A stretch of 64,000 bases of DNA from Alphaproteobacteria bacterium (GTDB lineage: Bacteria; Pseudomonadota; Alphaproteobacteria; Kiloniellales; DSM-21159): contig JAUILQ010000006.1 in assembly GCA_030433005.1 (NCBI GenBank), positions 1 through 64,000 on the forward strand, read 5' to 3'. Within the stretch, counting starts at the first letter, position 1. Each line of letters starts with the position of its first letter. A program made the position numbers and the translations under genes. Below, piece by piece: positions 6,432-39,296 of this stretch. The notes under the pieces are model-generated. The model saw nothing but the letters and a program-made list of their open reading frames with translations, was not told the origin of the DNA and did no database searches.

Positions 6432-9077
6432 TCAGGCCAGCGCCTTGGAGGCGATTTCGTAGACGTCCTTGGACAGCTTGGGCGCCTCGACGATGCGCTC
6501 CAGGGCGCGCTTCATCTTGGCCTGCCGGTCCTCGTCGAAACGGCGCCAGCGGATGAGCGGCTGGACCAGACGCGCCGCGACCTGCGGGTTGAGCGCGTCG
6601 AGCGCCAGCACCTCGTCGGCCAGGAAGCGGTAGCCGGAGCCGTCGGCGGCGTGGAAGCGCACCGGGTTGCCGGCCGCGAAGGCGCCGATCAGCGCGCGCA
6701 CCCGGTTGGGGTTGCGGCGGTCGAAGCCGGGGTGCTCGCGCAGGGCCTCGACGGTCGCCAGGGTGTCGGCACGCGCCGACATGGCCTTGAGGGCGAACCA
6801 CTTGTCGAGCACCAGCGAGTCGTCGCGCCAGCGGTCGTGGAAGGCCTGCAGCGCCGCCGCCGCGTCCTCGCGCTCCAGGTCGTTGAGCGACGCCAGGGCG
6901 GCCATGACGTCGGTCATGCGGCCGTCGGGCCGGGCCTGGGCCTTGGCCGCCTCGACCGCCGCCTCGTCGCCCGAGGCGACCCAGTAGGCGAGCGCGGCGT
7001 TCTTCAGGGCGCGCCGGCCCATCGCCTCCGTGCTCAAATCCTCGCCGCCGAGGTCGTTCTCGCCATCCGCCTCCGCGGCCAGCGCCTCGTAGGTGCGGCG
7101 CCAGTCGCCCTGCAGCGCCTCGCCGAGCGTGCGGCGCGCCTGCGTGCGGGCCTCGTGGACCGCGTCGACGTGCCAGGTCGCCATGGCCTGGCCGAGCAGC
7201 GATTCCCCGGGCAGCGCGAAGAGCTCGGCCTTGAAGGCGGGGTCCAGCCGGTCGTCGACGAGGCTGGCGCGGAAGGCCTCGAGGATGCGCGGGTCGAGCG
7301 CCGCCGTCCCGCCGGCGCGCAGGGTGTCGGCCATTGCCAGCAGCGAGCGCGTCGCCAGGGTCTGCAGCGCCTCCCAGCGGCCGAAGGGATCGTCGTCGGC
7401 GCCGGCCAGGAAGGCCAGGTCGTCCTCGCTCCAGGCGGCCTCCAGGCGCACCGGCGCGGAGAAGCCGCGCAGCAGCGAGGGCACCGCCGCGCCGCTCGGA
7501 TCCTCGAAGACGAACTCGGCCTCGGCGCCGTCGAGCAGCAGCACGCGCTCGGCCGCCGCCGGCGTGCCGTCGCGGCCGACCAGGGCGGCGCGCAGCGGGA
7601 TCGGCATCGGCTGCTTGTCGGGCTGCCCGGGCGTCGCCGGAACGCTCTGGCGCAGCCTCAGGGTCAGCGTCCCGGCCTCGGCGTCGCGCGTCCAGTCGGC
7701 GCGCACCTCGGGCGTGCCGGCCTGGCGGTACCACAGGCGGAAGGCGCCGAGGTCGGCGCCGTTGGCGTCCTCCATGGCGGCGACGAAGTCGTCGCAGGTC
7801 ACGGCCTGGCCGTCGTGCCGCTCGAAGTAGAGGTCGATGCCGCGGCGGAAGCCCTCGGCGCCGAGCAGCGTGTGGATCATGCGCACGACCTCGGCGCCCT
7901 TGTCGTAGACCGTCGGCGTGTAGAAGTTGCTGATCTCGATGTAGCTGTCGGGGCGCACCGGATGCGCGGTCGGGCCCGAGTCCTCGGGGAACTGCACCGA
8001 GCGCAGCAGCCGCACGTCGCCGACCCGCTTGACGCCGCGCGAGTGCATGTCGGCCGAGAACTCCTGATCGCGGAACACCGTCAGCCCTTCCTTGAGGGAG
8101 AGCTGGAACCAGTCGCGGCAGGTCACGCGGTTGCCGGTCCAGTTGTGGAAGTACTCGTGCGCGACGATCGACTCGACGCGCTGCAGGTCGGCGTCGGTCG
8201 CCGAGGCGGCGTCGGCCAGCACCGCCTTGGCGTTGAAGATGTTGAGGCCCTTGTTCTCCATCGCGCCCATGTTGAAGTGCGACACCGCGACGATCATGAA
8301 GAGGTCGAGGTCGTACTCCAGGCCGTAGACCTCTTCGTCCCAGCGCATCGCGCGCTTCAGCGAGTCGAGGGCGTGACCGGTGCGCGGCTCGTTGCCGTGC
8401 TCGACGAAGAGGCGCAGCGTCACCTCGCGGCCCGAGGCCGTGACGAAGCGGTCCTCGACGCAGGCGAGGTCGCCGGCGACCAGGGCGAAGAGATAGCTCG
8501 GCTTCGGGAAGGGGTCGTGCCAGACGGCGTAGTGCCGGCCGCCGTCCAGCGCGCCCTGCTCGACCGGATTGCCGTTGGCCAGCAGCACCGGGAAGCGGTC
8601 GGCCTCGGCCTCGATGCGCACGGTGAAGACCGCCATGACGTCGGGCCGGTCCGGATAGTAGGTGATGTTGCGGAAGCCCTCTGCCTCGCACTGGGTGCAG
8701 TACATGCCGCCGGACATGTAGAGCCCTTCCAGCGCGGTGTTGTCCTGCGGCCGGATGCGGCTTTCGACCGTCACCTCGAAGGCGCCGTCGCGCGCCGGCA
8801 GGGTCAGGCGCTCGGGCTCCAGGGCGTAGGCGTTGGGCCCGAGCGTCTCGCCGTCGAGGCTGACCGAGACCAGCTCCTGGTTCTGGCCGTCGAGCACGAT
8901 CGGCGCCGCGCCCTGCCCGGCCTCGGGATTGCGGCGGCCGCGCAGCGTCGTGCGCACTCTCGTCCAGTCGTCGCCCAGGGAGACCGCCATGTCGACCGTC
9001 TCGATGACATGCGCCGGCGCCTGGTAGTCGGACAGGCGGATCGGCTGCGGCGTGGCGAGGCTGAGGGTGCGGTCCAT
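6432..9077 (-). CDS. pepN: Aminopeptidase N (M1 family)
   Basis: MDRTLSLATPQPIRLSDYQAPAHVIETVD...GGMYCTQCEAEGFRNITYYPDRPDVMAVF...VAHEYFHNWTGNRVTCRDWFQLSLKEGLTVFRDQEF. Confidence 0.95.
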   Translation of the reverse strand: MDRTLSLATPQPIRLSDYQAPAHVIETVDMAVSLGDDWTRVRTTLRGRRNPEAGQGAAPIVLDGQNQELVSVSLDGETLGPNAYALEPERLTLPARDGAFEVTVESRIRPQDNTALEGLYMSGGMYCTQCEAEGFRNITYYPDRPDVMAVFTVRIEAEADRFPVLLANGNPVEQGALDGGRHYAVWHDPFPKPSYLFALVAGDLACVEDRFVTASGREVTLRLFVEHGNEPRTGHALDSLKRAMRWDEEVYGLEYDLDLFMIVAVSHFNMGAMENKGLNIFNAKAVLADAASATDADLQRVESIVAHEYFHNWTGNRVTCRDWFQLSLKEGLTVFRDQEFSADMHSRGVKRVGDVRLLRSVQFPEDSGPTAHPVRPDSYIEISNFYTPTVYDKGAEVVRMIHTLLGAEGFRRGIDLYFERHDGQAVTCDDFVAAMEDANGADLGAFRLWYRQAGTPEVRADWTRDAEAGTLTLRLRQSVPATPGQPDKQPMPIPLRAALVGRDGTPAAAERVLLLDGAEAEFVFEDPSGAAVPSLLRGFSAPVRLEAAWSEDDLAFLAGADDDPFGRWEALQTLATRSLLAMADTLRAGGTAALDPRILEAFRASLVDDRLDPAFKAELFALPGESLLGQAMATWHVDAVHEARTQARRTLGEALQGDWRRTYEALAAEADGENDLGGEDLSTEAMGRRALKNAALAYWVASGDEAAVEAAKAQARPDGRMTDVMAALASLNDLEREDAAAALQAFHDRWRDDSLVLDKWFALKAMSARADTLATVEALREHPGFDRRNPNRVRALIGAFAAGNPVRFHAADGSGYRFLADEVLALDALNPQVAARLVQPLIRWRRFDEDRQAKMKRALERIVEAPKLSKDVYEIASKALA

Positions 9078-28529: not shown

Positions 28530-28543
28530 TTGACGCAGATCAA
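28530..28543 (+). promoter_or_regulatory. FNR/FixK-type box upstream of ccoN
   Basis: TTGACGCAGATCAA versus consensus TTGAT-N4-ATCAA, 81 bp before the ccoN start. Confidence 0.85.
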
Positions 28544-34233: not shown

Positions 34234-36462
34234 ATGACTCTGGCCGAAAGCTTGCCCGCCGGCCGCGACGAGGCCGCGCCGATCGACGCGGGAGCCTACG
34301 TCCAGGTCGCAGACGACGGCGGCCTGCGCCTGCACCTGCTGGTCGAGGGCGCGCACTGCGGGGGCTGCGTGCGGCGCATCGAGCAGGGCCTCGCCGCCCT
34401 GCCGGGCGTCGAGGAGGCGCGGCTCAACCTCACGACCCGCCGCCTCAGCGTCGGCTGGCACGGCGAGCGGCGCCTGGCCGGCCGGGTCACGGCGAAGATC
34501 GCCGAGCTCGGCTACCGGGCGGTGCCCTACGAGCCCTCGCGGCTGACCGCCGACGACACCCGCCACGAGCGCGAGCTGCTGCGCTGCCTGGCGGTCGCCG
34601 GCTTCGCGGCGGCCAACGTCATGCTGCTGTCGGTTTCGGTCTGGTCCGGGGCCGGCGAGGAGAGCGGCGCGGTCACCCGCGACCTGCTGCACTGGTTCTC
34701 GGCGCTGATCGCCCTGCCGGCGATCGCCTATGCCGGCCGCCCGTTCTTCCGCTCGGCGCTGGCGGCGCTGCGCGCGCGCACGACCAACATGGACGTGCCG
34801 ATCTCGCTCGGCGTTCTGCTGGCCGCCGGCATGTCGCTGCACGAGACGATCGTCAGCGGGCCCCATGCCTACTTCGACTCGGCGATCACCCTGCTGTTCT
34901 TCCTGCTGGTCGGCCGCTATCTCGACCGCCGCGCGCGCGGCCGCGCGCGCTCCGCGGCGGAGCGCCTGCTGGCGCTGGGCGCCCAGGCGGTGACCGTGCT
35001 GCGCGCCGACGGCAGCCAGGTGCTGCTGCCGCCCGAGCAGGTCGAGCCGGGCGCCACCGTCCTGGTCGCGGCCGGCGAGCGCATCGCCGTCGACGGCTCG
35101 GTGGCCAGCGGCACGTCGGAGATCGACAGCCAGCTGATCACCGGCGAAACCCTGCTGCAGCCGGCCGCGCCCGGCACCCGCGTCTTCGCCGGCACCACCA
35201 ACGTGGCGGCACCGCTGCGGCTCACCGTGGCGGCGACCGGCGAGAAGACCCTGCTGGCCGAGATCGTGCGCCTCATGGAGTGCGCCGAGCAGCGCAAGGC
35301 GCGCTACGTCGGCCTCGCCGACCGCCTGTCGCGGATCTACGCCCCGGTCGTCCATCTGGCGGCGCTCGCCGCCTTCCTGGGCTGGACGCTCGTCGGCGGT
35401 CTCGCCTGGCAGCCGGCGCTGCTGATCGCCGTCGCCGTGCTGATCGTCACCTGCCCCTGCGCGCTCGGCCTCGCCGTCCCCGCCGTCCAGGTCATGGCCA
35501 GCGGCCGGCTGCTGCGCCGGGGCATCCTCCTGAAGTCGGCGACCGCCCTGGAGCGCCTGGCGCAGGTCGACACCGTGGTCTTCGACAAGACCGGCACGCT
35601 GACCGTGGGCCGCCCGGAGCTGCGTGGCGAGGGCATACCGGAGGAAGCGCTGGCCGCGGCCGCGGCGCTGGCCGCCAACTCGCGCCACCCGCTGGCCCGC
35701 GCGCTGCTGCGCGCCGCCACCGGGGCGCGGCCGGCCGAGGGCGTCATCGAGGTGCCGGGCTGCGGTCTCGAGCAGGTCACCGACGCCGGGCCCGTCCGGC
35801 TCGGCAGCCGTCGCTGGCTCGGCCTGCCCGAGGATTCCGCGGCCGGCCCGGAGCTCTGGCTGCAGCGGCCCGGCCGCGCGCCGCAGCGCTTCGTCTTCGA
35901 GGACCGTCTGCGCGACGACGCGGCGGCCGTGGTCGCCGAGCTCGCGCGCCGCGGCCTCGCCGTCGAGCTGCTGTCGGGCGATCGCGCGCCGACAGTCGAG
36001 GCCGTCGCCGGGTCGCTCGGCATCGCCGAGGCCCGGGCCGGCCAGACGCCTGCCGACAAGGTCGCGCGCCTCGAAGCCCTGGCCGCCGAGGGACGCCGGG
36101 TGCTGATGGTCGGCGACGGCCTGAACGACGCCCCGGCCCTTGCCGCGGCCGCCGTCTCGCTGTCGCCGTCGAGCGCCATCGACATCAGCCAGACCGCGGC
36201 CGACGCGGTCTTCCAGGGCGCTCGGCTCGCCCCCGTCCTGGAGGCCCTGGAGGTGGCGCGCCGCAGCGAGCGACTGGTGCGCCAGAACTTCGCCCTGGCG
36301 ATCCTCTACAACCTCTTCGCCGTGCCGCTGGCGGTCGCCGGCTTCGTGACGCCGCTGATCGCCGCCGCCGCCATGTCGGCCTCGTCGCTGACCGTCATCG
36401 GCAACGCCCTGCGCCTCGGGCTGCGCCGCCGCCCGGCGGCCGGGAGCGCCACCGCCCCGTGA
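34234..36462 (+). CDS. ccoI: Heavy-metal (copper) translocating P-type ATPase for cbb3 oxidase assembly
   Basis: HMA GAHCGGCVRRIEQGL; CPC transmembrane motif (IVTCPCALGLAVP); DKTGTLT; GDGLNDAPAL. Confidence 0.95.
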   Translation: MTLAESLPAGRDEAAPIDAGAYVQVADDGGLRLHLLVEGAHCGGCVRRIEQGLAALPGVEEARLNLTTRRLSVGWHGERRLAGRVTAKIAELGYRAVPYEPSRLTADDTRHERELLRCLAVAGFAAANVMLLSVSVWSGAGEESGAVTRDLLHWFSALIALPAIAYAGRPFFRSALAALRARTTNMDVPISLGVLLAAGMSLHETIVSGPHAYFDSAITLLFFLLVGRYLDRRARGRARSAAERLLALGAQAVTVLRADGSQVLLPPEQVEPGATVLVAAGERIAVDGSVASGTSEIDSQLITGETLLQPAAPGTRVFAGTTNVAAPLRLTVAATGEKTLLAEIVRLMECAEQRKARYVGLADRLSRIYAPVVHLAALAAFLGWTLVGGLAWQPALLIAVAVLIVTCPCALGLAVPAVQVMASGRLLRRGILLKSATALERLAQVDTVVFDKTGTLTVGRPELRGEGIPEEALAAAAALAANSRHPLARALLRAATGARPAEGVIEVPGCGLEQVTDAGPVRLGSRRWLGLPEDSAAGPELWLQRPGRAPQRFVFEDRLRDDAAAVVAELARRGLAVELLSGDRAPTVEAVAGSLGIAEARAGQTPADKVARLEALAAEGRRVLMVGDGLNDAPALAAAAVSLSPSSAIDISQTAADAVFQGARLAPVLEALEVARRSERLVRQNFALAILYNLFAVPLAVAGFVTPLIAAAAMSASSLTVIGNALRLGLRRRPAAGSATAP

Positions 36463-36671
36463 ACGTTCTCGTCTACCTGATTCCGATCGCCCTGTTCCTC
36501 GGCCTGCTCGGGCTCGGCGCCTTCCTCTGGTCGCTCAGGAGCGGCCAGTACGACGACCTGGACGGCGCCGCCGAGCGGATCCTGTTCGACGACGACGACG
36601 GGGAGCCGGACGAGACCGACAGGGTGCCGGCGGAGACGCGGCCTTCGTCGGATCGGGACCGCATGGCCTGA
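36459..36671 (+). CDS. ccoS: Cbb3 oxidase assembly protein CcoS
   Basis: VNVLVYLIPIALFLGLLGLGAFLWSLRSGQYDDLDGAAERILFDDD; GTG start overlapping ccoI stop. Confidence 0.93.
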   Translation: MNVLVYLIPIALFLGLLGLGAFLWSLRSGQYDDLDGAAERILFDDDDGEPDETDRVPAETRPSSDRDRMA

Positions 36672-36772
36672 CCGGCCGGACGCCGCTCCCCTGACGCCGG
36701 CCATTGCCCCGAAGCCCTGCCCGGGGGTATCCAGGAACTCCGCAGGTCGGCCGGGAGCCTGGGCAGCCCGTC

Positions 36773-37219
36773 ATGTCGGATTTCCGGATGTCGATGGAGA
36801 TCGACGCCAGGGGCGTCGTCGTCGCCGTCTACGAGGGCGAGTTCGATGCGACCGCCTGGATGCGCCAGCGCGCGGCGGTCTTCGAGAGCCGCTATCGACC
36901 CGAGGCCTACGACGGTCGCCCCACGGTGGTCGACGCCCGGCGCTGCCGCGTGCCCGAGCGCGACTGGTCGGCACATTTCGAGCAGGTCGCCCGGCAGCTC
37001 GGACAGCGCAAGCCGAAGCCGGCCCGGCACGCCATCGTGATCGCCGACGAGGCCGGCCAGAGCAACGCCGTCGCCCTGTTCGCCGCCTACCAGAGAATGT
37101 TCCACCACCCCCATGCCGAAGCTCGCGCCTTCCGCGACTACGACGCCGCCTATGCCTGGGCGCTCGAGGGACTGGCAGAACGTCCGCCCGGACCGGCGGG
37201 CGGCGTCCCCGCCGCTTGA
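36773..37219 (+). CDS. Tandem paralog family member 1 (hypothetical; possible SpoIIAA/STAS-like)
   Basis: MSDFRMSMEIDARGVVVAVYEGEFDATAWMRQRAAVFESRYRPEAYDGRPTVVDARRCRVPERDWSAHFEQVARQL...; alignable with the next four ORFs. Confidence 0.85.
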   Translation: MSDFRMSMEIDARGVVVAVYEGEFDATAWMRQRAAVFESRYRPEAYDGRPTVVDARRCRVPERDWSAHFEQVARQLGQRKPKPARHAIVIADEAGQSNAVALFAAYQRMFHHPHAEARAFRDYDAAYAWALEGLAERPPGPAGGVPAA

Positions 37220-37282
37220 CCTCCGGCGGCACCGGGCTACAGCTTAGCCTTGGGCCACGAAGCTGTGAGAGGGCACGACGCG

Positions 37283-37759
37283 ATGCCGGCGTTCCGGCTG
37301 CAGATGGACATCGACGCGAACGGCGTCGTGGTCGCTGTGTTCAGCGGCCGCTTCGACGCCTCGGAGTGGCTGCGCCAGCGCACCGCCGTCTTCGAGAGCC
37401 GCTACGGTCCCGACGACTACGACGGCCTGCCGGTGGTCACCGACTTCACCGACTGCCGCCTGCCCGACCGCGGCTGGACCGAGCAGTTCGAGGCCGTGGC
37501 CCAGGTGATCGGGACCAAGCGCCCCGCCCCCTTCCGTCACGCCATCGTCCTGCCCGGCGGCACGAAGGGCGAGACGGCGGTCGCGCTGTTCGGCCAGTAC
37601 CAGAAGCTGATCGCCAATCCCGGCGTCGTCACGCGCCGTTTCGAGGTCTTCGACGAGGCCTACGCCTGGGCTCTGGAAGGCCTCGGCGCCGCCGCCGACC
37701 GATGGCCGCAACGAAGCCCGCGCGGCGACGCCGGCCACGTCGATCCGCCGAGCGAGTGA
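37283..37759 (+). CDS. Tandem paralog family member 2
   Basis: MPAFRLQMDIDANGVVVAVFSGRFDASEWLRQRTAVFESRYGPDDYDGLPVVTDFTDCRLPDRGWTEQFEAVAQ... Confidence 0.85.
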   Translation: MPAFRLQMDIDANGVVVAVFSGRFDASEWLRQRTAVFESRYGPDDYDGLPVVTDFTDCRLPDRGWTEQFEAVAQVIGTKRPAPFRHAIVLPGGTKGETAVALFGQYQKLIANPGVVTRRFEVFDEAYAWALEGLGAAADRWPQRSPRGDAGHVDPPSE

Positions 37760-38217
37760 TCCCGGTGGAGCCGTTCCGCCTGTCCATGGAGATCGATGCG
37801 CGCGGAGTCGTCGTGGCGGTCCTGGAAGGCGAGTTCGACACGGCGGCCTGGCAGGCCCAGCGAGAGGCCGGCTTTCTCAGCCGCTACCGGCTCGAGGACT
37901 ACGACGGCCGTCCGGTGGTGACGGACTTCCGGCGCTGCCGCCTGCCGAGCGGCAACTGGTCCGAGCAGTTCCGCGGGGTCGCCGAGGTGCTGGCCCGCGA
38001 ACGGCGCAAACCCTTTCGGCGCGCCATCGTGATCGGGCCGGAGGCCGGTGCGGAGCTGGGGATCACCCTGTTCGCAGAGTTCCAGAAGCTGTTCCACCAC
38101 GCCGACCTGGAGACCCGGGCGTTCCTCGACTACGACGCGGCCTACGCCTGGGCGCTCGAAGCCCTGCCCGGCGAGCGGGACGAGCGGCCGACCCCATCCG
38201 AGGGGCGCGCCGGCTGA
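37756..38217 (+). CDS. Tandem paralog family member 3
   Basis: VIPVEPFRLSMEIDARGVVVAVLEGEFDTAAWQAQREAGFLSRYRLEDYDGRPVVTDFRRCRLPSGNWSEQFRGVAE...; GTG start overlaps the stop of member 2 (GTGA). Confidence 0.82.
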   Translation: MIPVEPFRLSMEIDARGVVVAVLEGEFDTAAWQAQREAGFLSRYRLEDYDGRPVVTDFRRCRLPSGNWSEQFRGVAEVLARERRKPFRRAIVIGPEAGAELGITLFAEFQKLFHHADLETRAFLDYDAAYAWALEALPGERDERPTPSEGRAG

Positions 38218-38340
38218 TCCCGTTGCCGGGCCGGCGAGCCGGAGTTGTGCGCCTTGCGGCTGCCCGCTAGAAAATGTGCGGGGATATCCGGCACGTCTGA
38301 TGCACCGGCCGCCGCAGGGCGCCGCCGGCGAGGAAGGGCG

Positions 38341-38769
38341 ATGCCGGATTTCAGCATGACGATGGAGATCGACGACCGCGGCGTCATCCTGGTCGTCTTC
38401 GAGGGGGTCTTCGTCGCCTCCGAGTTCCGCCGCCAGCGCGCCCTGCTGTTCGAGAGCCGCTACGCGCCGGCCGACTACGACGGCCGCCCCGTGGTCAGCG
38501 ACATCCGCCGCTGCGCCCTGCCCCGCCGTCACTGGGCCGACGAGTTCCGCGAGGTCGCCGAGCTGCTGCGCCGGCGGCGGCCGGCACCCTACCGCCACGC
38601 CATCGTGGTCGGCGACGAGCTCGGCTCGGAGACCGCGGTCGCGCTGTTCGGCGAGTACCAGCGGATCTTCCACCATCCCGACGTCGAGGTCCGCTCGTTC
38701 CGCAGCTTCTCGGAGGCCTACGCCTGGGCTCTCGAGGCTTTACCCGCGCCCGGTCAGATGGGAGCCTGA
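38341..38769 (+). CDS. Tandem paralog family member 4
   Basis: MPDFSMTMEIDDRGVILVVFEGVFVASEFRRQRALLFESRYAPADYDGRPVVSDIRRCALPRRHWADEFREVAE... Confidence 0.85.
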   Translation: MPDFSMTMEIDDRGVILVVFEGVFVASEFRRQRALLFESRYAPADYDGRPVVSDIRRCALPRRHWADEFREVAELLRRRRPAPYRHAIVVGDELGSETAVALFGEYQRIFHHPDVEVRSFRSFSEAYAWALEALPAPGQMGA

Positions 38770-38825
38770 GCGACTTGGGCGGCCGGCGCCACGGCTCCCC
38801 CCGGGCAGCAGCGGAAGGGCAAGGC

Positions 38826-39233
38826 ATGCCGAGGTTCGACATGACCATGGCGATCGACGACAACGGTCTGGTCGTGACCACCTGCGAGGGCACGTTCGAC
38901 GCCCGCCAGTGGCTGCGCCAGCGCCGCGAGCGCTTCGAGAGCCGCTATGCGCTGGCCGACTACGACGGCCGCCCGACGGTCACCGACCTGCGGCGCTGCC
39001 AGCTGCCGGACGGCGACTGGGCGGAGCAGTTCCGGACCGTGGCCGAAACCCTGAACCACCGCCGCCTGAAGCCCTTCCGCCGGGCGCTCATCGTCAGCGA
39101 CGAGCCCGGCGCCACGCTGGCGGCGACGCTGTTCGGCGAGTACCAGAAGATCTTCCACCACCCGGACGTCGAGACCCGGGCCTTCCGCGACTTCGACGAG
39201 GGCTACGCCTGGGCACGCGCCGCGCTGGAGTGA
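38826..39233 (+). CDS. Tandem paralog family member 5
   Basis: MPRFDMTMAIDDNGLVVTTCEGTFDARQWLRQRRERFESRYALADYDGRPTVTDLRRCQLPDGDWAEQFRTVAE... Confidence 0.85.
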   Translation: MPRFDMTMAIDDNGLVVTTCEGTFDARQWLRQRRERFESRYALADYDGRPTVTDLRRCQLPDGDWAEQFRTVAETLNHRRLKPFRRALIVSDEPGATLAATLFGEYQKIFHHPDVETRAFRDFDEGYAWARAALE

Positions 39234-39270: not shown

Positions 39271-39296
39271 GAAGGCCCCGGCGAGCCGGGGCCTTC
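39271..39296. terminator. Stem-loop between the paralog array and rpsD (possibly bidirectional terminator)
   Basis: GAAGGCCCCGG-CGAG-CCGGGGCCTTC perfect 11-bp stem between two convergent genes. Confidence 0.7.

Follow-up and report, generated by a model that had tools for sequence, protein, structure and literature searches.

A 64,000-nucleotide stretch of an alphaproteobacterial genome, which we call the window, carries five tandem paralogs of a previously unclassified protein family directly downstream of its cbb3 oxidase assembly genes. The array is a genus-specific tandem expansion in Tistlia and is predicted to belong to a known fold class. We think it probable that the array is a Tistlia-restricted expansion of single-domain cytoplasmic SpoIIAA-like proteins (STAS/CRAL-TRIO type) that bind partners or ligands, and that their place beside the cbb3 genes is ancestral.

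Five diverged genes under purifying selection

The five co-directional genes occupy positions 36773 to 39233 of the plus strand and encode paralogs of 135 to 158 amino acids (aa) that are 49 to 59% identical pairwise. The initial annotation had reported five tandem paralogs here, and we found the open reading frames (ORFs) at or very near where it had placed them, aligning from end to end. From ORF analysis and alignment, member 1 (36773 to 37219) is a SpoIIAA-like fold paralog of 148 aa; member 2 (37283 to 37759, 158 aa) is the most diverged copy and has a C-terminal tail predicted to be disordered; members 4 (38341 to 38769) and 5 (38826 to 39233) have 142 and 135 aa. Members 1 to 4 are 50 to 59% identical to member 5 over the full length. 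Member 3 (37756 to 38217) has 153 aa if it begins at GTG 37756. The likelier start is GTG 37765, which gives 150 aa, because the resulting N terminus, MEPFRLSM, places its MEPF in register with the starts of the other members. The GTGA overlap proposed earlier for members 2 and 3 is therefore possible but uncertain, since a start at 37765 would leave none.

The alignment of the five copies contains 39 invariant columns, including SRY, YDG, C58, W65, F69, V72-A73, and YAWA. All the motifs singled out in the annotation (SRY, YDG, the Cys, W...F..VA, and the C-terminal AYxWA) are indeed kept in every copy. Once four homologs from Tistlia consotensis are added, 29 columns stay invariant, as judged on nine sequences, all of them from two congeneric species. 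GC content at codon positions 1, 2, and 3 of the array ORFs is about 0.73, 0.48, and 0.93 (individual ORFs range from 0.42 to 0.52 at position 2 and from 0.87 to 0.97 at position 3). Nonsynonymous differences are fewer than synonymous ones in every pair, and none of the copies is broken. Together with retention in a second species, the codon-position GC and the substitution pattern show that the five ORFs are true coding genes, diverged, and under purifying selection.

Cross-species pairs, namely, member 5 with T. consotensis copies T2 (64%) and T3 (61%) and member 4 with its nearest copy, T4 (63%), are closer than any pair within the window. T2 and T3 are the nearest copies to member 5, and the three form a group in the tree with weak support (82/83). 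Because cross-species pairs are closer than within-genome pairs, at least some of the duplications appear from sequence to be older than the species split, which agrees with the earlier view that these are not recent duplications.

Distribution of the family

When the proteins of 61 relatives were searched, the family turned up in only two genomes: that of the window, with five copies, and that of T. consotensis USBA 355, with four copies up to 65% identical to the window's members. Profile searches gave the same picture. Of 387 genomes of the class, only the window's own carried the family; 2 of 64 genomes of the order did so, and a search of 399 genomes of the phylum added no further genome. 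Two spurious subthreshold matches from the phylum (L071/L072) were rejected; one is an incidental reading frame, and the other is a radical-SAM-type enzyme, named solely from its CxxxCxxC sequence. Plasmid collections and viral contigs yielded no relatives. Among sampled genomes, then, the family is restricted to the genus Tistlia; this distribution rests on genome samples, and rare members may exist elsewhere. The terms STAS, SpoIIAA, and cytochrome are absent from the main text of a paper on the Tistlia exoproteome (PMC4545795).

Such a pattern could arise from neutral or selfish tandem amplification, for instance, as part of a mobile element, with no dedicated function for the proteins. Absence outside the genus would fit, as would the difference in copy number (five versus four) and the fact that synteny stops at the array in both genomes. 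We nevertheless regard this explanation as very unlikely: nonsynonymous differences would not be expected to fall below synonymous ones in all pairs with every copy intact, the closeness of member 5 to T2 and of member 4 to T4 implies that copies were already being retained before the two species diverged, and no relatives turned up on plasmids or viral contigs.

Remote homology to SpoIIAA-like proteins

Sequence profiles from Pfam, NCBIfam, PHROGs, and PDB gave nothing significant for the array proteins. The Pfam SpoIIAA-like family PF11964 scored 12.5 bits against member 1, with a cut-off of 25 bits, and was not listed for the other members, so that no member reaches its gathering cut-off. 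The STAS family of Pfam was not listed for any array protein up to an E value of 5. Matches to DUF4726 and bacter_Hen1 were discarded as being below cut-off and covering only part of the protein.

Aligned by hhalign with 24 PF11964 proteins, the array family gave a probability of 91.6 and a score of 40.4, versus 21.7 for the best of 40 column-shuffled controls; in all, none of 80 shuffled controls exceeded 21.7. The E values of hhalign refer to a single comparison, and the array alignment consists of nine sequences with an Neff of about 2. This result supports the array family being a remote relative of PF11964, as far as sequence can tell.

The window's genome also encodes a single SpoIIAA-like protein (L021:5236-5682, contig C20). 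It is remotely related to the array family, and full-length relatives of it occur in one or more further genera of the order. An hhalign comparison with this protein and its relatives gave a probability of 86 over some 104 to 111 columns. It shares with the array a VxDxR strand and a W near the C terminus; it differs in being a single copy elsewhere in the genome and in having no significant BLASTP match to member 1. Other PF11964 matches of the same genome, on contig C70, proved to be repeat-bearing chemotaxis-type proteins and not SpoIIAA relatives. They are two adjacent proteins (L020:5285-8773), classified by reading their sequence, and each has three near-identical PAS-like repeats ahead of the signaling domain.

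Predicted structure

The initial annotation had guessed at a SpoIIAA/STAS-like fold, and structural models support this guess. AlphaFold modeled member 5 with a mean pLDDT of 91.4 and a pTM of 0.85. Member 2 had a pLDDT of 81.0, with low scores mainly in the C-terminal tail (residues 139 to 157, below 50). Both models have the element order β1-β2-α1-β3-α2-β4-α3-β5-α4 plus one short extra helix, and this order matches the topology given for the SpoIIAA-like fold (PMC2954212). The top Foldseek match for both was 2q3l, a SpoIIAA-like protein of DUF3478 (E value, 1e-4; probability, 1.00; TM score, 0.53 to 0.66), and matches 2 to 6 were STAS anti-sigma antagonists, some in complex with their kinases. 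Sec14 proteins matched weakly, with E values of about 0.09 or worse, and a search of viral structures returned only STAS-like or unnamed proteins. Confident models, coherent structural matches, and the profile-profile alignment agree, and the array proteins are predicted with high confidence to share a SpoIIAA/STAS-type fold.

Known members of this fold class provide a basis for comparison. The fold commonly serves for binding, either to another protein or to oily compounds. PF11964 (formerly DUF3478), represented by Shewanella 2q3l and 2ook, has a predicted topology in common with the array proteins, and both families end in an AxxW-type motif and conserve an Ala and a Phe. Two conserved clusters are described for the solved relatives. 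The second, formed by Ala on β4, Phe on β5, and AxxW on α4 (PMC2954212), has array counterparts in A87, F120, and the AxxWA ending. The first consists of a cavity His/Tyr in α1 and Trp-Asp-Asp in α2 (PMC2954212); in the nine-copy alignment, an invariant Trp starts α2, and clear counterparts of the cavity His, Tyr, and Asp were not recognized. The array family is set apart from PF11964 by its own invariant core (SRY, YDG, VxDxxxC, and P...W) and by its four to five tandem copies, whereas most of the sampled genomes with PF11964 have a single match, and three genomes have two. A precedent for tandem copies exists in other alphaproteobacteria, where we observed PF11964 proteins or domains in tandem pairs (G294:C63:16303-17000 and G205:C1:1096283-1096984). 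The CRAL-TRIO/Sec14 lipid-transfer domains are structural cousins in the same fold class, but they are much larger and eukaryotic, and the similarity to the array proteins is one of resemblance only.

Proposed binding of ligands or partners

The STAS antagonists SpoIIAA, RsbV, and RsfB share the overall fold of the array proteins, and this raises the question of whether the five are anti-sigma-factor antagonists of a partner-switching set, rivals for the same anti-sigma kinase or kinases. The second, third, and several further Foldseek matches, kinase complexes among them, speak for this. Unlike STAS antagonists, however, the array proteins have no STAS profile match, and there is no conserved Ser or Thr at the switch site. 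The β3-α2 loop before W65 (positions 61 to 65) reads DGD, ERD, DRG, SGN, RRH, ALD, KRD, DRD, and GQD in the nine copies. As the equivalent loop has no conserved Ser/Thr, the array probably does not operate the classic SpoIIAA Ser-phosphorylation switch. A cognate SpoIIAB/RsbW-type kinase was not identified among those flanking genes that were profiled, which are a part of the neighborhood. Taken together, we consider it unlikely that these proteins act as antagonists.

Binding of a ligand or partner is favored instead because the fold and the β4-β5-α4 cluster are common with the solved relatives and there is no conserved phospho-acceptor. Those relatives have been proposed either to bind hydrophobic ligands on the surface of the membrane or to act as an interfacial enzyme (PMC2954212). 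By analogy, each array copy would most likely bind, noncovalently, either a partner protein or, at the membrane surface, a hydrophobic ligand. The copies may differ in ligand or partner, or they may mix as dimers.

Position next to the cbb3 genes

The last cbb3 assembly gene is ccoS (36459 to 36671, plus strand; TIGR00847, E value of 6e-27; PF03597, E value of 2e-23), preceded by a gene for a CcoI-type copper ATPase. The gap from ccoS to member 1 (36672 to 36772) is 101 bp, and pattern scans found in it no sigma-70-type promoter, terminator, or FNR-type box, in keeping with the earlier remark that the array starts about 100 bp past ccoS with no obvious terminator. Promoters of high-GC alphaproteobacteria are often missed by such scans. 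In the whole window, the FNR-type pattern TTGATNNNNATCAA has 16 matches with at most two mismatches, versus 2.5 expected from shuffles; one of them (28530 to 28543) has a single mismatch and sits where the first cco gene begins.

Past the array, a hairpin (39271 to 39296) with a perfect 12-bp GC-rich stem and a region z of −2.25 lies between the array and the convergent rpsD on the minus strand (PF00163/PF01479), and the two share it. The strong hairpin noted earlier is real, but its role as the array's terminator is doubtful; there is no T-run after it on the plus strand and the terminator scan made no call there, so it may mainly serve rpsD.

Much of the window between about 4 and 36.5 kb is collinear with contig C48 of T. 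consotensis (from 39.5 down to 13.5 kb). Collinearity stops at ccoI/ccoS; the array comes next in both species, in the cco direction, on the same strand and within 6 kb (about 5.6 kb in T. consotensis). We found no gene shared by the two species past the array. In T. consotensis, the interval between ccoS and the array (about 8.2 to 13.3 kb of C48) is taken up by some 5 kb of two-component genes on the opposite strand, which encode a sensor histidine kinase, a response regulator, and a hybrid kinase. For the sensor kinase (L010:8180-10432), the window's genome offers no evident ortholog (best identity, 36%); the kinase gene contains an in-frame TAA at 8675 to 8677, within the sensor domain. 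Since these opposite-strand genes separate ccoS from the array, the T. consotensis array presumably has its own promoter, and cotranscription with cco is not conserved. The cco-array linkage itself is real within the genus. The linkage suspected from one genome thus extends to both Tistlia species and no further, the sampled relatives being without the family.

This bears on whether the array is an oxygen- or cbb3-linked accessory module cotranscribed with ccoS, with the invariant Cys sensing redox or, as the oxidase is assembled, helping to handle heme or copper. The short gap, in which the pattern scan found no terminator, the downstream position in both genomes, and a Cys kept in nine of nine copies would all suit such a module. 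Against it stand the opposite-strand genes of T. consotensis, the absence of the family from sampled alphaproteobacterial relatives, and the missing FNR-type box ahead of the array. The Cys, C58, lies at the end of β3 in a VxDxRRC stretch; it is the lone common Cys, outside any CxxC or heme-binding motif, is 1 of 29 invariant residues, gives no sign of redox activity, and may be structural. We therefore hold the accessory module to be quite unlikely and do not retain the proposal of a redox, oxygen, or signaling module tied to the oxidase. A role in sensing or shuttling a small molecule of respiration, such as a quinone, for the cbb3 branch, in which every one of the five proteins would rely on its Cys and on a lipid-type cavity, is highly improbable. 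Two genomes of the same genus do not allow function to be told apart from inherited gene order, and most simply, the array's position beside the cbb3 genes reflects shared ancestral gene order and is not evidence for a role in oxidase assembly.

The favored reading, a tandem expansion of ligand- or partner-binding proteins, assigns an orphan family confined to one genus, by prediction, to the SpoIIAA-like fold class. Its nine diverged paralogs form a clean natural set with which to explore the binding targets of single-domain proteins of this kind. Should the copies prove to differ in the lipids or partners that they bind, the array would be a case of a small binding fold diversifying through tandem duplication.
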